50,183 bases of DNA, taken from positions 1 through 50,183 of IMG/VR virus record IMGVR_UViG_3300009085_000039; one strand, given 5' to 3'. A program made the position numbers and the translations under genes. The DNA comes from a virus. Shown here in pieces: positions 18,684 through 30,687 of the stretch. The number at the start of each line of letters is the position of its first letter. The first letter of the stretch is position 1. A model generated the notes under the pieces. The model was not told the origin of the DNA. It saw only the letters and a program-made list of their open reading frames with translations, and searched no databases.

Positions 18684-19172
18684 ATGGAACTGGCAAAGAG
18701 CCTTGATTTTTACGAGAAGCAGATAAAAAGCGGTGTTCGGGCGGGGTTACTGGGCGCGATTCATATCGGTATTGCACTTAAGAGGATTAAAGACGATAAC
18801 TTATGGGTGACAAGCGGGTCAAGGAACTTTGAGAAATACGTTTCTTCATCTCACGGCTTCTCCAAGAGTACCACCTATAACATGATCTCAGTAGCGGAAA
18901 AATTCGGCAAACATATCCTTGAAGATCCCTCTTTACAGTCCATCGAGCCGACGAGACTTATCCGGTTACTACCGTTTGTTGATGATTCCAACCCGTTGGA
19001 CTTGCTACATCAAGCGGCACAGATACCGGACGCACAGGGTTTCGACAATCAACTCCGAAACTTAGGCGGCAAGACCGGGACAGACGACCCGCACGAACAT
19101 GCATGGGAGTCAATCAATATCGAACAATGCTCCATCTGTAAACTCAGAAGGAAGGTGAAAGATGTCATCTAA
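18684..19172 (+). CDS. HTH protein, DUF3102/ParB-like
   Basis: A 162-residue protein. Residues 20-95 follow the pattern of plasmid/phage helix-turn-helix proteins: an IGIALKRIKDDNLW helix, FEKYVSSSHGFSKSTTYNMI, then a helix with AEKFGK. The C-terminus has a Cys pair (CSICKLR) and His, possibly a zinc site. DUF3102 and ParB-type domains bind DNA. GGGAGG is best spaced for 18684. It overlaps the HNH gene by 11 bases. It is a candidate binder of the dispersed palindromes, but that is speculation. Confidence 0.5.
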   Translation: MELAKSLDFYEKQIKSGVRAGLLGAIHIGIALKRIKDDNLWVTSGSRNFEKYVSSSHGFSKSTTYNMISVAEKFGKHILEDPSLQSIEPTRLIRLLPFVDDSNPLDLLHQAAQIPDAQGFDNQLRNLGGKTGTDDPHEHAWESINIEQCSICKLRRKVKDVI

Positions 19173-19626
19173 TAGGTCTAAATCGACATCTAAGCCACTT
19201 AAAAAGAAAAAGGCGGTAGGAGATACCAAGAAACACAGAAAGCGAATAGAAGGCGAATTAGACCGCCTTTGGGCGCAAATAGTCAAGGCTCGGTGGAACA
19301 ACAAATGTGGTTGGCCTGGGTGTCAATACAAAGAAGCACTGGCAAGTCACCATTTTTATCATAAAGCACACGGCCTTCGGGCAAGGTGGAATCTTGATAA
19401 TGGTATAGTACTTGACTTCTATCATCATATCCAGGTCGTCCATCGGAGAGGAGATACCGAACCGATAAGGGATGCCATCATTGAACATATCGGGCAGGAC
19501 AGGTTTGAGCAATTAAAGATCGACGTAAGAGGGATATGGAAACCATCTATTGAAGAACTTGAGTGTCTGAGGGATGATTTTCAGGGAATACTTGACGAAA
19601 TTACGGTAAAGGAGACAGGGATATGA
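19162..19626 (+). CDS. HNH/NinG-like nuclease
   Basis: A 154-residue protein with a basic N-terminus, a zinc-binding pair (Cys49, Cys54) and an HNH-type core: SHHFYHKAHGLRARWNLDNG with LDFYHH (His63-64, Asn80, His88-89). This matches small phage HNH or NinG-type recombination proteins, which may cut junctions or nick DNA. Its place after replication genes fits a recombination role. Confidence 0.65.
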   Translation: MSSNRSKSTSKPLKKKKAVGDTKKHRKRIEGELDRLWAQIVKARWNNKCGWPGCQYKEALASHHFYHKAHGLRARWNLDNGIVLDFYHHIQVVHRRGDTEPIRDAIIEHIGQDRFEQLKIDVRGIWKPSIEELECLRDDFQGILDEITVKETGI

Positions 19627-19763
19627 CAGGGATAGTTTGTAAGAAATGTGGGAAGAAGGATTGTAGGGAGTTTCTTATCTTAGGCGGATGGGTTACTTTC
19701 GTGTGTCCAGGTTGTGCGTTTAGTTGGACGGAGCCGGTGAATTTGCAGGAGGTTAAGATTTGA
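19623..19763 (+). CDS. 46-residue zinc-ribbon protein
   Basis: An ORF overlapping the HNH gene as ATGA. The product begins MTGIVCKKCGKKDC and has a second pair, CPGC, so it would bind one zinc ion as a ribbon. Last gene of the replication operon, followed after about 195 bases by a convergent terminator. Role unknown. Confidence 0.55.
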   Translation: MTGIVCKKCGKKDCREFLILGGWVTFVCPGCAFSWTEPVNLQEVKI

Positions 19764-19954
19764 ACGCAATCCCCTTTCTTTTTCTCTTGACCTGCCCTTA
19801 GCAAGAGAACCAGTGGGTCCCGATGTCAAGATCGGGGAGGGTAGAAAGCCGGTAACTACCGTGAAAGCCCCTTGACCCCCTCTGGATTTTGCACGTTCTT
19901 GATCTTCCCTAAGGCGGGGCGGACAAGTCGGTTAACACCTTTCCCCCTTTTAAA

Positions 19955-20083
19955 TACAAAAGCCCCCGAATCATATAGACTCCGAGGGCTTTTTATTCTA
20001 TCAGCGGTTGTGAGGCAGACATGATTTATATCAAGAACTGCGCCGCCGATATTTTGGTTACGGGTAATCATATCAAACCTCAC
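19955..20083 (-). ncRNA. Candidate structured small RNA
   Basis: A consensus promoter (20090-20118) predicts transcription starting at about 20083, exactly at the base of a long stem. It pairs GTGAGG with CCTCAC (20078-20083/20010-20015), ATGATT with AATCAT (20066-20071/20021-20026) and ATATC with GATAT (20048-20052/20028-20032). It would end at the 19958-19994 terminator, giving about 130 bases. An in-frame reading exists but runs through the terminator, so a coding role is less likely. Target unknown. Confidence 0.55.
19958..19994. terminator. Bidirectional intrinsic terminator
   Basis: AAAAGCCC (19958-19965) pairs with GGGCTTTT across a loop, followed by TTTTT on the plus strand and by TTTTGTATTT on the minus strand. 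It separates the plus replication operon from the minus small RNA and the DUF932 operon. Of the surrounding gap (19764-20155), 19764-19950 holds no gene; a small stem CCGAT/ATCGG near 19818 is the only structure seen. Confidence 0.75.
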
Positions 20084-20089
20084 GATTCC

Positions 20090-20118
20090 CCTATAACCGA
20101 AAATCAGGTTTTTGTCAA
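20090..20118 (-). promoter_or_regulatory. Promoter of the candidate small RNA
   Basis: On the minus strand TTGACA (plus 20113-20118) is followed after 17 bases by TATAGG (20090-20095). It lies downstream of the DUF932 gene in the same direction, so it defines a separate transcript. Confidence 0.7.
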
Positions 20119-20139
20119 TACCCTATTTTATCACCCCCT

Positions 20140-20157
20140 TTTCCAATTTCTTGGACT
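20140..20157 (-). repeat. Dispersed palindrome, copy 3 (GAAA centre)
   Basis: The minus-strand sequence is AGTCCAAGAAATTGGAAA. It overlaps the stop of the DUF932 gene. Sixteen bases are identical to the plus-strand copy at 23913-23928, so the two copies are inverted and bracket the DUF932-to-amidotransferase module. As RNA from the DUF932 transcript it forms a stem with a GAAA loop. Confidence 0.75.
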
Positions 20158-21175
20158 ACGCTGCGATTTGGTTCCATTCTTTCTCTGTTAGGTCGATTAT
20201 TCTTCCACCGATGGATTCATATTCAATCGCTCTGTCGTAATCCTCAGTGTTGTTCGCCATTGCGGTTACGGAGTTGGCAAGCCCCCATTGAGATAGGTCC
20301 CCGCCATTGACGAGGTTCTTCAAGATCGAGTCCTTAGCCGATACCGGCATGGAGTACCGTTTAGTGACGTCTTCGATGACTGCGACCAGAGGCTTCTCTT
20401 TGATCTTGTTTTCGGCGGTAAGTTGAAGTCTGGACATGGTTTTATCCCAAGCCACTTCAGACAAGGTTTCCCTTACCGTATCCCTGATCTTAAGTAGAAA
20501 TGCGTGGTTATCGGCATTTCGTGTATCAGCGGCGAAGTAGTCTTGGTCGATTTGCTTCCCTATATGGTATTTTCTCATGGCGGTATCTCTAATCATCCCG
20601 TTAAGGCATACCAACCTATAGATGAGGGGAGAGATATTTACCGATCCAAGGCCCACTTCTGAGTTGGAGATGATAAGACCTGATTGAACCACGTCGCCTT
20701 TTTTTACTTCACCTTGAAGTTTAGGGAAAACGACTTGAAGGTACATGCGTTTTTCAGTCACTTCCGCCGAAAGGACTTGAATATCAGGATACTCAAGAAC
20801 AACCGGAAGCGCGGTTTCAAGGATGAGGTCGTTATCAAGGGGTCTGTACCTGTCCGAAAGAAAGGCCCTTGCTTTTGAACCTACAGTCCTTACCATTCGG
20901 CTATCGGTGGCTCGGGCAAGCCATGTGTTGACGTTGTTTTCCCATAAAGCGGGTGTTTGGGTTTTCATCCGGTCATAATAAGCCTTTGGGATGTCGAGCT
21001 TTTCCGCCATTTGCTCATGGAAGATAGGGTTGATGTCATAAGCGTTTTGTCCATCGAACTCCAATTTCCCACCTGCTACGAACATATGGTCTGAGGGAAC
21101 GATGAAATCCTTACGTTGGTTTGCGGAGTTTTGTACCGCTTCCGCGAGTTTCATGATGCTGATTCCTTTGTTCAT
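20156..21175 (-). CDS. DUF932-family phage/plasmid protein
   Basis: A 339-residue protein of the DUF932 type found on phages and plasmids; its function is not established. Recognisable stretches are FIVPSDHMFV, SDRYRPLDND near residue 110, a LGSVNISPLIYRLVCLNG core and an RYSMPVSAKDSIL segment. The ATG at 21175, with AAAGGAGATCGAT upstream, is chosen; the open frame extends 103 codons further up through the promoter region, but that part is not protein-like. Divergent from the second Cro-like regulator, so likely repressed by it. Confidence 0.75.
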   Translation of the reverse strand: MNKGISIMKLAEAVQNSANQRKDFIVPSDHMFVAGGKLEFDGQNAYDINPIFHEQMAEKLDIPKAYYDRMKTQTPALWENNVNTWLARATDSRMVRTVGSKARAFLSDRYRPLDNDLILETALPVVLEYPDIQVLSAEVTEKRMYLQVVFPKLQGEVKKGDVVQSGLIISNSEVGLGSVNISPLIYRLVCLNGMIRDTAMRKYHIGKQIDQDYFAADTRNADNHAFLLKIRDTVRETLSEVAWDKTMSRLQLTAENKIKEKPLVAVIEDVTKRYSMPVSAKDSILKNLVNGGDLSQWGLANSVTAMANNTEDYDRAIEYESIGGRIIDLTEKEWNQIAA

Positions 21176-21206: not shown

Positions 21207-21235
21207 ACAATAACACAAACCCCTTCAATAGTCAA
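21207..21235 (-). promoter_or_regulatory. Promoter of the DUF932 gene
   Basis: On the minus strand TTGACT (plus 21230-21235) is followed after 17 bases by TATTGT (21207-21212). Its -35 box lies in one arm of an inverted repeat TCAAGAA (21232-21238) / TTCTTGA (21260-21266) that also covers the -35 box of the divergent plus promoter. Confidence 0.6.
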
Positions 21236-21314: not shown

Positions 21315-21509
21315 ATGGAAGAGATGACGACATCAATGAAAATAAGAGGGTTACTGGCATCAAGAGGATGGACGCAAACAAATCTTTCCGAATACCTGGA
21401 CTGCACCAGGGAAACTATTTCCAATCGTTTACGGGCAGATAATTGGAGCGTGAAGGATTTGAAGCGGATCGCGGAGTGCTTCAACGAGGATGTTTCCAGG
21501 CTTCTGTAA
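21315..21509 (+). CDS. Cro/CI-like HTH regulator (second copy)
   Basis: A 64-residue protein that is nearly all helix-turn-helix: GWTQTNLSEYLDCTRETISN, then NWSVKDLKRIAECFN. It is a paralogue of the 15390-15596 product (21 of 56 aligned residues identical by eye). It lies beside a divergent promoter pair in the same arrangement as the first copy. It probably controls the DUF932 gene and itself; terminators follow before the amidoligase operon. Confidence 0.7.
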   Translation: MEEMTTSMKIRGLLASRGWTQTNLSEYLDCTRETISNRLRADNWSVKDLKRIAECFNEDVSRLL

Positions 21510-21837: not shown

Positions 21838-21909
21838 ATGATTGAAAAAGTGATTTTCACCTATTTGGCGGCGTTGGTGGTTTTAATGTTTCTTGTCTAT
21901 TTTATTTAA
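21838..21909 (+). CDS. 23-residue membrane micropeptide
   Basis: The first ORF behind the promoter, with AAAGGGGG eight bases before ATG. The product (MIEKVIFTYLAALVVLMFL plus four residues) is a single membrane helix. It ends 11 bases before the amidoligase start. It could be a membrane anchor or target for the modifying enzymes, a toxin-like peptide, or a leader; nothing decides. Confidence 0.5.
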   Translation: MIEKVIFTYLAALVVLMFLVYFI

Positions 21910-25517: not shown

Positions 25518-26105
25518 ATGCGATTCATTCTGAAAGGAACGGCGAGGGATGGGCATGGGCAGATAATTTCAAGTGCCACGGTGAGTGTTTATTTGGCGGG
25601 GACCACGACGGTTGCTTCGGTGTATGCGGCATCTGCCGGTGGGACTGCGGTGAACTCAGTCACTTCTGGAACGGACGGTTCGTTCACGTTATATGTTGAT
25701 GATTCGGATTACTATCAATCTCAGAAGTTCAAGGTGACGGTATCTAAAACCGGATACACGAGTAAGACTTACGATGATGTGGTCATTTTCGCTCTGGGAC
25801 AGGCGACGGTGAAGACTGCTTTGCCTTCGGATGGTGCCGGGGAGAACGGTGATTTTGCCATCGTTGAGACAACGGACAACCATCAGTTCGCGTGGCAAGC
25901 CGGGGATGTATGGTACACCAGCGGCAGGGCGGAGATTCTTGCTGCGGTTCCTTCTGCGGGTACGGGGACTAACGGGGAGATAAGGATCATCGAAGCAACC
26001 GGCCTTCATGCGATAGCATGGAAAGCCGGGGGTGCGTGGTATGTGTCCATAGGAGGCACGACAGAAGGTTCTGCCGGTAATTACTCTTGGGAGTCGAGTC
26101 TGTGA
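25518..26105 (+). CDS. Beta-sandwich virion protein, possible decoration
   Basis: A 195-residue protein. Residues 1-95 resemble a carboxypeptidase-regulatory or Ig-like sandwich (ISSATVSVYLAGTTTVA, then TVSKTGYTSKTYDDVVI). Residues 100-185 hold two repeats of the type GENGDFAIVETTDNHQFAWQ and TNGEIRIIEATGLHAIAW. Such modules appear on fibres and capsid decorations. It overlaps the terminase start as GTGA. Confidence 0.55.
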   Translation: MRFILKGTARDGHGQIISSATVSVYLAGTTTVASVYAASAGGTAVNSVTSGTDGSFTLYVDDSDYYQSQKFKVTVSKTGYTSKTYDDVVIFALGQATVKTALPSDGAGENGDFAIVETTDNHQFAWQAGDVWYTSGRAEILAAVPSAGTGTNGEIRIIEATGLHAIAWKAGGAWYVSIGGTTEGSAGNYSWESSL

Positions 26106-28636
26106 CCGAGATTGAAGGCATAGCGGGTTGGGAGGGGATGTTTTCGTACAAGCCCACTCAGGTATTGAAGTGGCTTTTAACGAGTCCCTGTAAGATCACC
26201 TGCATATTTTCCGGCAACCAATTTGGAAAAAATGAATGTTTATCAGCACTTACGTTAATAGATACTCCTGAAGGGAAATTCACAATGGAGTATTTATATA
26301 ATAGAAGGATGCCATTTGAAGTTTATTCTTGGGATGGGGACAAAATCGTTAAAGCAAAAGCATCAAAACCTTTTAAGAAAAGTGGTGGTAAACGCTTATG
26401 TTATAAAATTACAATGGCTAATGGTCAGTGGGTAGAGGCATCTTCTGAGCATCGTGTTTTAACAACTTCTGGTGATTATATTTCTGTCGGCACCTTATAC
26501 GATTTTTTTCGCGGTTCTCCTCAGGAGAAAGTTTACGAGAAATATTATAAGATTGCTGACGAACCCTCCCATCGGGAGTCCATTTTGGGATTTTTCCCTT
26601 CAATTCAGTTCGAAGATGTTCTGCATTACTTGAAAAGAGTATTAGGTTTTCTAGGTTGTTGTTTTCACGATTTCCATCTAAATGGTGGACAACCTCTTGG
26701 GGGAGGAGGTAGCGAGACAGTTTTCTTTCGATTATTAAACGATGTTCGGCAACATATTTACCGCCATGTACTGCAAAAGGATGTTCTGGATAGTAAATAT
26801 GCCAGTATCCAGAAATTAGTATGCGGCCTCCTTTCCATCCTGTGTGTTTATCACCGGAACGTGGTCCGGTTCTTTGAGTCTTTATTGCCAGTTTTTTGCA
26901 TAGGTACTCTATCGTATACAGGGGTACATCAAAATATTCAGCGACTTCCCATTGTCTCAAACCTTCTTTCTCAATCATATAGATTAGTTTCTGATGATCG
27001 ACTTTTCCCGAAGATTTCATACGCTCCTCCTTTAATATTTGATGGTAATAAAGTTATTAGCATCGAAATGGTTGCAAGTCAAGAAGTATATGATATGACC
27101 GTTGAAAAATATCACAACTATCTTGCGGGTGGTTTAATTCACCATAATTCAGTTGCGATGGATCAAATCTTCTCTATCTTGGGAACGCACCCTAACGTGA
27201 ACAAACGTGTAAGGCCCGAAGACACCATCAGGACGTTCAGGTTTGCCTCTCAGACCCTCCCCGGGGAGAAGGAAGAGGATGAAGTCAAGAACACCCAATA
27301 CCCCGCGTTCAAACGAAGGCTACCGGCTAATCTTATCGAGAAAGAGATCACGCAGAGAAAACCAACCTTAACGGTGAAGACTCCTGATGGCGGGAACGTA
27401 CAGATAGAATTTGTGAGTTTCCAACAGGATGTTCAATCCGGTGCCGGTGTCCAGAGGAAGCGGATATGGATAGATGAGGAATGTACAAGGGATTTCTACG
27501 AAGAGCAGATCCCGAGGCTTCTTGCGGCGGATGGGGATATTGTGTTCACCTTTACTCCTGTCCCCGGCGCGATAGGTTGGGAGTTTGACGAACTCTACGA
27601 ACGGGCGAAGATCATCTACCGGACCCCTGCGGTACGACAGCGGATTAAAGAACGCTACGGAGAGGACTACCCCGAATGTCAGATAACCAAAAGCAAAGAT
27701 GACATCTGCGTTATCATGGCGGCTACGGATGACAACCCTGTTTACGAAGAGGTGGCACGGAAGCGAAGCCTTCATACCGGGATAAAGATCACGGCGAAAG
27801 AATACATCGATTCCATGTTCAATATGTATGACGATGAGGACGTTATCGATGCTCGAAGATATGGGTTGTTCAGACAGCTTTCCGGCAAGATCCACAAGTC
27901 GTTTTGCGCGACACATATATTAAAGGAAGAGGTTTACTTCCCCGAAGGCATTCCAACCGAGTGGAAACACTATCGTGGGATCGACTATCATCAGTCTAAC
28001 CCTTGGGCGTGTGTATGGCTCTCTTTAAGCCCTCAGGACGAGATATTTGTATGGGACGACTACGCCCCCTCCCCCCAAAGGATGATAACCTACGACATAG
28101 CAGAGAACATCGCCCGAAGGAGCCATGACTTCAGATATGTGTTTAACATGATTGACCCGAACGCTTCCAATAGGCAGCCGAATACGAATTTAACCACCAT
28201 AGACGACCTGAATAGAGCCTTTATGGACTTCCGAACCAGGGGACTATGTAATGGGGGTCACTGGCAAGCATGGGATACCCACGGTGGTCGCGGCAGGGAA
28301 GAACTGACTAAAAGACTGATAAATTCCGTAAAAGTGGGCAAGCCGTTCAATAATAAGGTAGTTTCAGAGGGTCGTGCGGTATATCTCCCGACAATTTGGT
28401 TCACCCAGAACTGTAAAAACACGATTGAAAGTCTGAAAAATTGGCGTTTGGAACAGTGGTCTTCACGGGAATCTCTTTCAAAAAACGATCCAAGGGAAAA
28501 GACGCAGATGAGGTGGTCGCATTTTCCTATTTGTATAGAATGTATGCTCAAGTCGCCCCTTCTGTCCCTTGCCAAATGGGGGAATCTGGATGGGACACCG
28601 TTGAGGCCGAAACTTTATGCTTCAGGAAGGAATTAA
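26102..28636 (+). CDS. terL: Large terminase subunit (TerL) with intein
   Basis: An 844-residue precursor that starts at GTG 26102. It is the ATP-driven motor and nuclease for DNA packaging. The Walker A loop GNQFGKN (residues 38-44) is followed by Glu45, then a 304-residue intein, then Ser350. Removing it restores GNQFGKNE-SVAMDQIF and gives a 540-residue TerL. Downstream are Walker B (RIWIDEE, near 455), a coupling motif (FTFTPVPG) and acidic nuclease residues in GIDYHQSNPW and FNMIDPNAS. Packaging would need splicing. The gene shares bases 26418-27020 with an antisense nuclease gene. Confidence 0.9.
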   Translation: MTEIEGIAGWEGMFSYKPTQVLKWLLTSPCKITCIFSGNQFGKNECLSALTLIDTPEGKFTMEYLYNRRMPFEVYSWDGDKIVKAKASKPFKKSGGKRLCYKITMANGQWVEASSEHRVLTTSGDYISVGTLYDFFRGSPQEKVYEKYYKIADEPSHRESILGFFPSIQFEDVLHYLKRVLGFLGCCFHDFHLNGGQPLGGGGSETVFFRLLNDVRQHIYRHVLQKDVLDSKYASIQKLVCGLLSILCVYHRNVVRFFESLLPVFCIGTLSYTGVHQNIQRLPIVSNLLSQSYRLVSDDRLFPKISYAPPLIFDGNKVISIEMVASQEVYDMTVEKYHNYLAGGLIHHNSVAMDQIFSILGTHPNVNKRVRPEDTIRTFRFASQTLPGEKEEDEVKNTQYPAFKRRLPANLIEKEITQRKPTLTVKTPDGGNVQIEFVSFQQDVQSGAGVQRKRIWIDEECTRDFYEEQIPRLLAADGDIVFTFTPVPGAIGWEFDELYERAKIIYRTPAVRQRIKERYGEDYPECQITKSKDDICVIMAATDDNPVYEEVARKRSLHTGIKITAKEYIDSMFNMYDDEDVIDARRYGLFRQLSGKIHKSFCATHILKEEVYFPEGIPTEWKHYRGIDYHQSNPWACVWLSLSPQDEIFVWDDYAPSPQRMITYDIAENIARRSHDFRYVFNMIDPNASNRQPNTNLTTIDDLNRAFMDFRTRGLCNGGHWQAWDTHGGRGREELTKRLINSVKVGKPFNNKVVSEGRAVYLPTIWFTQNCKNTIESLKNWRLEQWSSRESLSKNDPREKTQMRWSHFPICIECMLKSPLLSLAKWGNLDGTPLRPKLYASGRN
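26237..27148 (+). mobile_element. Intein in the TerL Walker A loop
   Basis: The 304-residue insert begins with Cys (block A, CLSALTLIDTPEGKFTM) and has block B (VEASSEHRVLTTSGDYISVG, about precursor residues 108-128). It ends with block F/G, EVYDMTVEKYHNYLAGGLIHHN, abbreviated here: YDMTVE, then HHN before Ser. Cys1, penultimate His, final Asn and +1 Ser are all present, so it should splice. No LAGLIDADG or HNH motif is visible in the plus-strand frame between blocks B and F; that place is occupied by the reverse-strand HNH gene. Confidence 0.88.
26418..27020 (-). CDS. HNH homing endonuclease encoded antisense within the intein
   Basis: A 200-residue protein on the strand opposite terL. AAAGGAGGAGCGT precedes the ATG, a strong ribosome-binding site that argues against a chance frame. 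An N-terminal helix-turn-helix (WEVAEYFDVPLYTIEYLCKK, 24-43) would bind DNA. The nuclease core follows: AEHRLIIERKL (His93), VVHHLDGNRENNNLENL (His112-113, Asn119-122) and AEHL (His135), as in HNH_3 homing enzymes. The C-terminus is basic. Its last codons lie antisense to intein block B. It probably mobilises the intein. No minus-strand promoter was identified close upstream. Confidence 0.88.
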   Translation of the reverse strand: MKSSGKVDHQKLIYMIEKEGLRQWEVAEYFDVPLYTIEYLCKKLAIKTQRTGPRSGDKHTGWKGGRILISGYWHIYYPEHPFAVHGGKYVAEHRLIIERKLSRYLLPQEVVHHLDGNRENNNLENLILFSSNAEHLRTELKGKIPKWTPDGRVRQQSYNISRKLSPEENREKNRIRCRQKYNHQKLLKHDAQKMPLPTDH

Positions 28637-28786: not shown

Positions 28787-30687
28787 TGGCAAAAAGACGG
28801 CTTAAAGAGGCAGATTTGGTGTTGGCGAACAACATTTACGACCAATACGACATTGCCAAAAGGGATCAACAGGATTCGGATGAAGAATTTGCCGGGATAA
28901 TGGACATGATTGAGTGCAAACGGTCTGAAAAGGACTATGAGTGGATGTCCGATGTCTTCATCCCGGAGTTTCCATCTATTCACTTGACTGAAGCATCCCA
29001 ATGGGCAAACCAGTATTTCCAGAGTCGTGATTTCGTTGAGGTGTACCTAAGCGATGCCTCCGAAATTGGTGAATTTAGGGCAAAAGCCGCCAAAGATTAC
29101 ATCAACACCATGCTCAATGTGAAGGAACTCTATCACTACCCTAAGTACATAAGGGCAAGGGGGATAAATTCAATCCGTGGACAGGTTGTTGCGGTATGCA
29201 GTTGGAAACAGAGGCTTATAGAGAAGAACGAGCCTTCGGAAGAGATGGCATTAACAGGGTACGATGCCAATTCCGCCCCGGTTTACGACATGGTACAGAA
29301 GCAGAACACGGTTTCTCATCCGGTTGAGGACAGGTTTGAGTATGAGGTAATCGACCCGAGGAACCTGTTTTCGGATAACAAATACGCCTATTCGATACAG
29401 GAAAAGGAATGGGTTATCATTAGGAGTGAGATGACCTATGACGAACTGTATTCCAAGCGATTGGAAAACGGGTACATCAATCTCGACAAGGTGAAAAAGT
29501 GGAAAACGGTTTATAAAACTGATACCGCAAAGGACACCGAGAATGAAGAGAACGAAAGCAAACTTACCGAGCCGCATTTTGATGTTCTTGAACGATTCGG
29601 GAAGACTTGGGCGGTTGTTGAAGACCGTGACGAATATGGAAACCCGAGAACGATTCATAACGGGTACAAAGAGGACGGGTCTGTAAAGGAATCTGCGGAA
29701 CTTGTCGAGGCGATTGTCACGGTGGCTTGCTACAATAGCGATAGAGTCCTGATAAGGCTTCAGGCAACACCGTTTATCACCTCCAAGGGTATTCCCTATA
29801 GACCCCTTATAAGAGGGTTATGCTACGTCCATCCGACCAAGGATGTCGGCATGAGCGACGGTAAGTACGGCAGGGAACTTCAAATTTTAATAAACGACAT
29901 GATAAACATGGGTATCGACAGGTCTAAACTCTCCATGCTGCCTACTTTGAAGGTCCGGAGACTTGCTTGGGAAGACAACGATTCCATCTATTTTGAGCCG
30001 GAACACGCTATGATAGTCGAGAACAAGGACGACATCGAGGAGTTCAGGATCGATGGGAATATTCAATCTTCAATGGACATCATCTCATTGGCGATAAATA
30101 AGATGCAACAGGTCGAAGCGGTGTACCCCACGACAATGGGAAACACGCCAGGGAAAGTGGAAACCGCAACGGCAATCTCCGGCGCGGAGAACCGGGGGAA
30201 CTTGAGGGCAAACTACAAATCCCTTACCTTTGAACATACTTTTCTTTCGGAGTTTTACTGGATGATGCTTCAAATGGGCTACCAGTTCATGCACCCCGAA
30301 ACCGCCACCGAGATCATGGGTGACAATGCACAATATTTCGATCCCGACCAGAACTACAGCTATACCCCTGTGACGAGCAATATCGAGGTGGAATACTCAA
30401 AGGCGAAGAAACTGCAAGCCTTCGACTCTATGTTGAGCCGTTTGGTTGGGCTTCAGAACCCCGCCATCGTCCCGATCATTGCGGCGATTGTGTCACGGCA
30501 ATTCGAACTCCTGGGTGATGAGTACCAGAAATACTCTAAACTTGTTGAAGTGTTGGCTAAGACACCCAATACCCCTGAAGCCGGAGGAGGGAATAAAAAT
30601 CAACCCAACGGTAAAGAAGCAATGCCTCCTCAGAATCAGGAAGGATTGCCCATGAGTGGCATGGAACAAGAGGTTAGAGGAATATGA
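28786..30687 (+). CDS. Portal protein
   Basis: A 633-residue protein in the position of the head-vertex portal, the dodecameric ring through which DNA passes. Features that fit are the acidic N-terminus, a long beta-rich middle, a LLNDMINMGIDRSKL-like stem helix (here ILINDMINMGID, near 370), LSMLPTLKVRR and a helical C-terminal part followed by a Pro/Asn/Gln-rich tail. The length suits podoviruses. The second of two adjacent ATGs (28786) is better spaced from AAGGTG. Contains one copy of the dispersed palindrome. Confidence 0.8.
   Translation: MAKRRLKEADLVLANNIYDQYDIAKRDQQDSDEEFAGIMDMIECKRSEKDYEWMSDVFIPEFPSIHLTEASQWANQYFQSRDFVEVYLSDASEIGEFRAKAAKDYINTMLNVKELYHYPKYIRARGINSIRGQVVAVCSWKQRLIEKNEPSEEMALTGYDANSAPVYDMVQKQNTVSHPVEDRFEYEVIDPRNLFSDNKYAYSIQEKEWVIIRSEMTYDELYSKRLENGYINLDKVKKWKTVYKTDTAKDTENEENESKLTEPHFDVLERFGKTWAVVEDRDEYGNPRTIHNGYKEDGSVKESAELVEAIVTVACYNSDRVLIRLQATPFITSKGIPYRPLIRGLCYVHPTKDVGMSDGKYGRELQILINDMINMGIDRSKLSMLPTLKVRRLAWEDNDSIYFEPEHAMIVENKDDIEEFRIDGNIQSSMDIISLAINKMQQVEAVYPTTMGNTPGKVETATAISGAENRGNLRANYKSLTFEHTFLSEFYWMMLQMGYQFMHPETATEIMGDNAQYFDPDQNYSYTPVTSNIEVEYSKAKKLQAFDSMLSRLVGLQNPAIVPIIAAIVSRQFELLGDEYQKYSKLVEVLAKTPNTPEAGGGNKNQPNGKEAMPPQNQEGLPMSGMEQEVRGI
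29450..29467 (+). repeat. Dispersed palindrome, copy 5
   Basis: ATTCCAAGCGATTGGAAA, inside the portal gene on the sense strand, encoding part of YSKRLEN. Six-base perfect arms with the same GCGA centre as copy 2. Confidence 0.7.

Follow-up and report, generated by a model that had tools for sequence, protein, structure and literature searches.

Short phage RNAs that carry a promoter and a terminator of their own include lambda OOP RNA, sar and c4, which lie on the strand opposite a neighbouring early or replication block (PMC12197685). The trans-acting small RNAs VpdS of VP882 and PreS of lambda are likewise short phage transcripts from outside coding genes, and both are bound by Hfq (PMC12197685). 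In arfA and brfA, which are 72-codon genes, a terminator-type stem-loop precedes the stop codon and gives rise to a non-stop message (PMC8012679). Small RNAs derived from 3′ untranslated regions (UTRs), such as CisR, are structured and lie in the interval from a stop codon to a terminator (PMC13250501).

Here we describe a candidate of this kind in a 50,183-base IMG/VR virus record, analysed over its full length and referred to below as the window. Judged by sequence, the candidate RNA has its own promoter and terminator, as phage small regulatory RNAs do, and would add a member to this known class. It resembles OOP RNA, sar and c4 in being short and in lying on the strand opposite a replication block; unlike OOP-type antisense RNAs, however, it overlaps no coding target beyond the vicinity of the shared terminator, and no target or sequence match was found for it. 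As proposed, it would share with VpdS and PreS a position outside coding genes, whereas its U tail is interrupted (TTTTGT) and poor for Hfq. A 71-codon frame that begins within the candidate (20071–19856) has the layout of arfA and brfA, with their frames of about 71–72 codons, in that an intrinsic terminator lies in frame before the stop codon, which could be chance. In contrast to those genes, the terminator comes much earlier (codons 27–38, with active BrfA at ~62 aa), and a search of the window with the ArfA profile (PF03889) returned nothing at E ≤ 10. Placed after a stop codon and before a terminator, the structured region recalls CisR, from which the present locus differs by a phage-class promoter inside the 3′ region.

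Results

Genomic setting

The window bears the hallmarks of a phage, encoding an intein-containing terminase, head proteins, a DnaD-like loader, a primase-helicase and an exonuclease, together with an SU10-type portal match that falls under the curated cut-off. The candidate locus lies between a plus-strand replication block and a single, convergent minus-strand gene for a DUF932 protein; it is on the same strand as the latter and downstream of it (Table 1). The plus-strand genes end 190 nt from the candidate RNA, and the terminase and portal genes are 6–9 kb away. Between the two convergent units, a hairpin with T tracts on both strands accounts for the terminator that the initial annotation had placed about 130 bases after the start. 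Its minus orientation, at −19.1 kcal/mol, is one of the window's strongest terminators and ends about 129 nt from the predicted start. The plus-strand sequence of 19764–19995 showed no unusual structure (z about 0).

Two other regions deserve mention in their own right. The terminase gene (26087–28636) contains an intein (Pfam Intein_splicing); an 86%-identical relative (L004) needs about 300 codons fewer for the same terminase protein and so lacks the intein. A 23-aa open reading frame at 21838–21909, nearly all hydrophobic (MIEKVIFTYLAALVVLMFLVYFI) and with its own promoter, directly precedes an amidoligase-like gene; the segment 21921–23908 encodes an Amidoligase_2 protein and then a class-II glutamine amidotransferase-like protein (weak match).

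Table 1. Features at and around the candidate RNA locus (window coordinates)
Feature	Position	Strand	Basis or remark
-35 hexamer TTGACA	20118-20113	-	Sequence; one of four TTGACA-N17-TATA sites
-10 hexamer TATAGG, without final T	20095-20090	-	Sequence; matrix score 9.9
Predicted transcription start, G after C	20083	-	Inferred from spacing; seventh base after -10
Outer stem, 5′ arm GTGAGGT	20083-20077	-	Pair probability 0.93-0.96; includes Shine-Dalgarno-like GAGGT (core match)
Outer stem, 3′ arm GCCTCAC	20016-20010	-	Fold
Second helix, 5′ arm GATATGATT	20074-20066	-	Pair probability up to 0.96; includes ATG of 71-codon frame
Second helix, 3′ arm AATCATGTC	20026-20018	-	Fold
Inner helix ATATC / GATAT	20052-20048 / 20032-20028	-	Weak
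9-bp helix, loop strand TATCGGCGG	20051-20043	-	Strongest single helix of the body
9-bp helix, 3′ strand CCGCTGATA	20007-19999	-	Dominates for 5′ ends at 20090 or further upstream
Intrinsic terminator AAAAGCCCTCGG...CGGGGGCTTTTGT	19993-19958	both	Bidirectional; T tracts on both strands; between convergent units
71-codon frame, candidate small protein	19856..20071	-	ATG at 20071; Shine-Dalgarno GAGGT-N5; open through terminator
Palindrome TTCCAANNNNTTGGAA, copy	20141..20156	both	Between DUF932 stop codon and promoter
DUF932 protein gene, 339 aa	20156..21175	-	Pfam PF06067, phrog_1362; upstream co-directional gene
46-aa gene with CxxC pairs	19623..19763	+	Last of convergent replication block; stop at 19763
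NinG-like gene	19162-19626	+	Precedes 46-aa gene; near end of replication block

Promoter class and predicted start

The initial annotation had proposed a minus-strand promoter, TTGACA-17-TATAGG, starting transcription on the first base of a stem. Both hexamers are present with a 17-nt spacer, and the spacing places the predicted +1 on the first G of GTGAGG, where the stem begins. Taken by itself the site is mediocre, ranking 50 of 100,286 positions under an approximate sigma-70 matrix. A simple promoter scan does not list it; its -10 hexamer misses the conserved final T.

The window contains four copies of the pattern TTGACA-N17-TATA, a class that we spotted post hoc (20118 on the minus strand; 21263, 21787 and 23994 on the plus strand), against 0.13 expected, and none of 300 simulated genomes reached four. 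All four sites are intergenic, though intergenic sequence makes up 11.5% of the window, and the three others directly precede genes, which start at 21315 (helix-turn-helix, HTH), 21838 (the 23-aa peptide) and about 24049. Since the four -10 hexamers read TATAGG, TATAAG, TATATA and TATACG, the absent final T is a property of this phage promoter class. The excess over expectation, the intergenic placement of every member and the position of three of them before genes together indicate that the promoter at 20118 is probably genuine.

A predicted stem that depends on the 5′ end

Every chance figure in this section refers to a locus that was chosen out of 50 kb for its striking look. The minimum-energy fold of 20083–19948 in ViennaRNA is a nested stem, with the arms GTGAGG/CCTCAC, ATGATT/AATCAT and ATATC/GATAT where they had first been marked. 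The three helices are nested as described, and the two outer ones are firmly predicted (~0.95 paired); the third, ATATC/GATAT, is weak, at about 0.4. A further helix of 9 bp, absent from the initial annotation, joins the stem's loop to the segment just ahead of the terminator (TATCGGCGG/CCGCTGATA). Judging from its position, it could coexist with the nested stem as a pseudoknot, or it may be the rival of the stem in longer RNAs.

The full transcript folds more stably than its shuffled versions (z = −4.6, 0 of 1,000 shuffles), to which the terminator contributes largely. Without the terminator, the 90-nt body is moderately stable (z = −2.1, 29 of 1,000 shuffles) and falls in the top 4% of windows under a composition model; the 76-nt stem by itself, cut at its own ends, gives z = −3.2 (6 of 1,000). 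Among 1,500 shuffles, 1 equalled the summed strength of the three strongest helices in the body between promoter and terminator, as did 0.7% of the window's 90-mers with matched GC content.

The predicted stem responds sharply to the position of the 5′ end. Its probability is 0.84–0.95 for RNAs that begin at 20083–20088, 0.52 at 20089 and ≤0.04 from 20090 upstream, and it is 0.05 at 20082. A 5′ end closed in the same way, defined as the first 7 nt pairing with nt 56–90 at a probability >0.9, is found at 29 of 4,356 window positions (0.67%). The start predicted from the promoter thus lies inside the narrow range where the stem forms, and this agreement, a single-sequence argument, supports the picture of a short RNA.

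A translation start inside the stem

The stem also contains GAGGT-N5-ATG, which the initial annotation had missed when it proposed a small regulatory RNA and which turns a small mRNA into a serious competitor. The promoter would then serve a small protein whose start at 20071 is masked, with the stem hiding both the Shine–Dalgarno sequence and the ATG (about 97% paired in the short RNA). Because the 71-codon frame stays open through the terminator, an RNA that ends at this terminator would form a non-stop message; the normal product would be a message of about 40 codons following the arfA/brfA logic, or the 71-aa protein would be made only upon terminator read-through.

Several features fit such an mRNA. 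GAGGT-N5-ATG has the form of the phage's own gene starts, although about 6% of non-gene ATGs carry such a Shine–Dalgarno sequence by chance. The leader is short: the ATG follows the -10 hexamer by 18 nt, where the remaining members of the promoter class have 22, 23 and about 26 nt. The start also has TTGATATGATT in common with that of the 23-aa frame at 21838, where it stands similarly far downstream of the promoter. Of the six frames, frame 0 has the highest score over the 71 codons, comparable to that of the 64-aa HTH gene. Against this, the codon score of the part before the terminator is lower than that of 95% of gene segments, no relatives or family of the protein were found, structure prediction gave no confident fold (pLDDT 44), the ArfA search was negative, and a strong terminator at codons 27–38 of 71 would be oddly placed. 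We regard a masked small-protein mRNA as unlikely, while taking it seriously.

A combination of both functions is far less probable still. In such a dual mini-gene, the 130-nt RNA would be a start-site-dependent switch as well as a non-stop message, and translation would open the stem and let the polymerase pass the in-frame terminator, yielding the 71-aa protein and an RNA antisense to the convergent replication block.

On the plus strand, the 3′ arm of the stem (20010–20026) reads GTGAGG-N5-ATGATT, and the inverted repeat resembles two facing translation starts. The corresponding plus-strand frame (20021–20191, 56 codons, GTGAGG-N5-ATG) was rejected, having a weak coding score and no relatives.

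A possible 3′ UTR of the DUF932 message

The same region could instead be the 3′ UTR of the DUF932 gene. Its message, from a promoter near 21235, would run 200 nt past the stop codon to the shared terminator; the promoter-like site and the stem would be incidental, and the long RNA would either fold differently or be trimmed to a 3′-UTR-derived RNA. The gene is on the same strand, no terminator was found between 20156 and 19993, and its promoter candidate is strong (rank 8 with the approximate sigma-70 matrix). RNAs beginning at 20155 or 20120 have a nested-stem probability of 0 and form two other hairpins, and the helices across the entire 162-nt spacer are unexceptional, at about 0.1 of shuffles. 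What speaks against this origin is that the TTGACA-N17-TATA class occurs far above chance and has one of its sites here, and that the stem forms only with 5′ ends at the predicted start. Moreover, no such region lies downstream of the gene in the two DUF932 relatives inspected (L021 and Faecalibacterium phage Roos), both distant. On this evidence a DUF932 3′ UTR is also a serious reading, if a rather doubtful one.

A dispersed palindrome

Just upstream of the promoter lies a copy of the palindrome TTCCAAN4TTGGAA (TTCCAANNNNTTGGAA), the commonest in the window among palindromes with any 6-base half-site and a gap of 0–12. Allowing one mismatch in the 16 bp, it has nine sites against 0.24 expected (12873, 15035, 18053, 18986, 20141, 23912, 27951, 29451 and 47767). 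Most of these are intragenic; at 20141 and 23912, the site closely follows a stop codon, with a TTGACA-N17-TATA promoter lying downstream of it. The set reads like stoperator- or partition-type sites, but is palindromic. In a related phage (G003, about 80–84% identical locally), the palindrome is absent at the positions homologous to 27951 and 29451 and from the whole record, and the difference at 29451 alters portal residues, so that these relatives differ by gain or loss of the site set.

This strongly enriched element raises the question of whether the locus acts as DNA, with the inverted repeats and the 20141 palindrome as binding sites of a repressor, partition or recombination protein and the RNA fold as a by-product. 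The arms of the stem, however, are not repeated elsewhere in the window, and the palindrome is mostly found within genes and apart from the stem; we consider a DNA-level role very improbable.

Searches for relatives and targets

At the gathering threshold, Rfam had no matches in the window, and at a permissive threshold weak ones only, such as His_leader, driven by the terminator. DNA similarity searches against phages and plasmids returned short matches, of which those to Klebsiella lay at the terminator. Scans of IMG/VR with the stem sequence, a gapped stem pattern and the neighbouring proteins yielded nothing usable, and a single-sequence covariance model run over related loci matched only itself. 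Relatives in the structural module, among them G003 (73% DNA identity over 6 kb), share no convincing sequence with the candidate locus; another relative (G005) retains the NinG-like gene, followed by different genes. The missing homologs are weak evidence, because the neighbouring genes themselves have nearly no relatives: the DUF932 protein has one at ~41% in GTDB and others at ~39% in gut phages, and the NinG-like gene matches a single related contig. A search for antisense targets inside the phage gave none better than about 5% of shuffles, uncorrected.

Discussion

We read the locus most readily, with a confidence of 0.45, as encoding an independent phage small RNA whose 5′ end closes in a hairpin and which is most likely regulatory. 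The promoter family and the match between start and stem favour an independent short structured transcript, as the initial annotation had envisaged. A small RNA is also favoured by the low codon bias before the terminator and by the lack of a protein relative or a confident protein fold. It is weakened by the -10 hexamer without its last T, by the failure to find a homolog in phages, plasmids, IMG/VR and Rfam and hence any covariation, the standard proof of such a structure, by the moderate stability of the body, by the interrupted U tail, by the absence of a standout target and by a translation start of the usual type inside the stem. Taken together, a small RNA is plausible, with the small-protein mRNA and the DUF932 3′ UTR as serious competitors.

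From the elements present, the enrichment of the promoter family and the start-dependence of the predicted fold, we infer how such an RNA would be transcribed, fold in vivo and act. RNA polymerase would use a promoter belonging to the phage's TTGACA-N17-TATA class, initiate at 20083 and halt at the bidirectional terminator, which would also end the facing replication block. The product, about 130 nt long, would have its 5′ end closed as an interrupted hairpin of ~16 bp with a 40-nt loop, the middle of which could pair with the strand before the terminator in a 9-bp pseudoknot. The closed 5′ end and the terminator hairpin should stabilise the RNA, which would most likely be a regulatory small RNA acting by base pairing or protein binding; the buried Shine–Dalgarno sequence and AUG would be silent or conditionally used.

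More specific roles found no footing. The earlier suggestion of a packaging- or exclusion-related RNA has nothing in its favour, given the lack of an Rfam match, the 6–9 kb separating the locus from terminase and portal, and the lack of a significant antisense target. A packaging RNA of the phi29 pRNA type was rejected after an Rfam scan without a covariance match, and an HDV-like ribozyme, considered because the stem begins at +1, was rejected because inspection revealed no equivalent of P4 or J4/2 and Rfam gave no match.

Phage small RNAs are seldom annotated in metagenomic genomes. If real, the candidate at 20083 would be a concrete transcript open to testing, its start, fold and end all defined, and the phage's own promoter class would help to separate likely small transcription units from chance hairpins. 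Should the locus prove to be a masked non-stop mini-mRNA, it would represent an unusual phage gene design; as a 3′ UTR, it would be ordinary.
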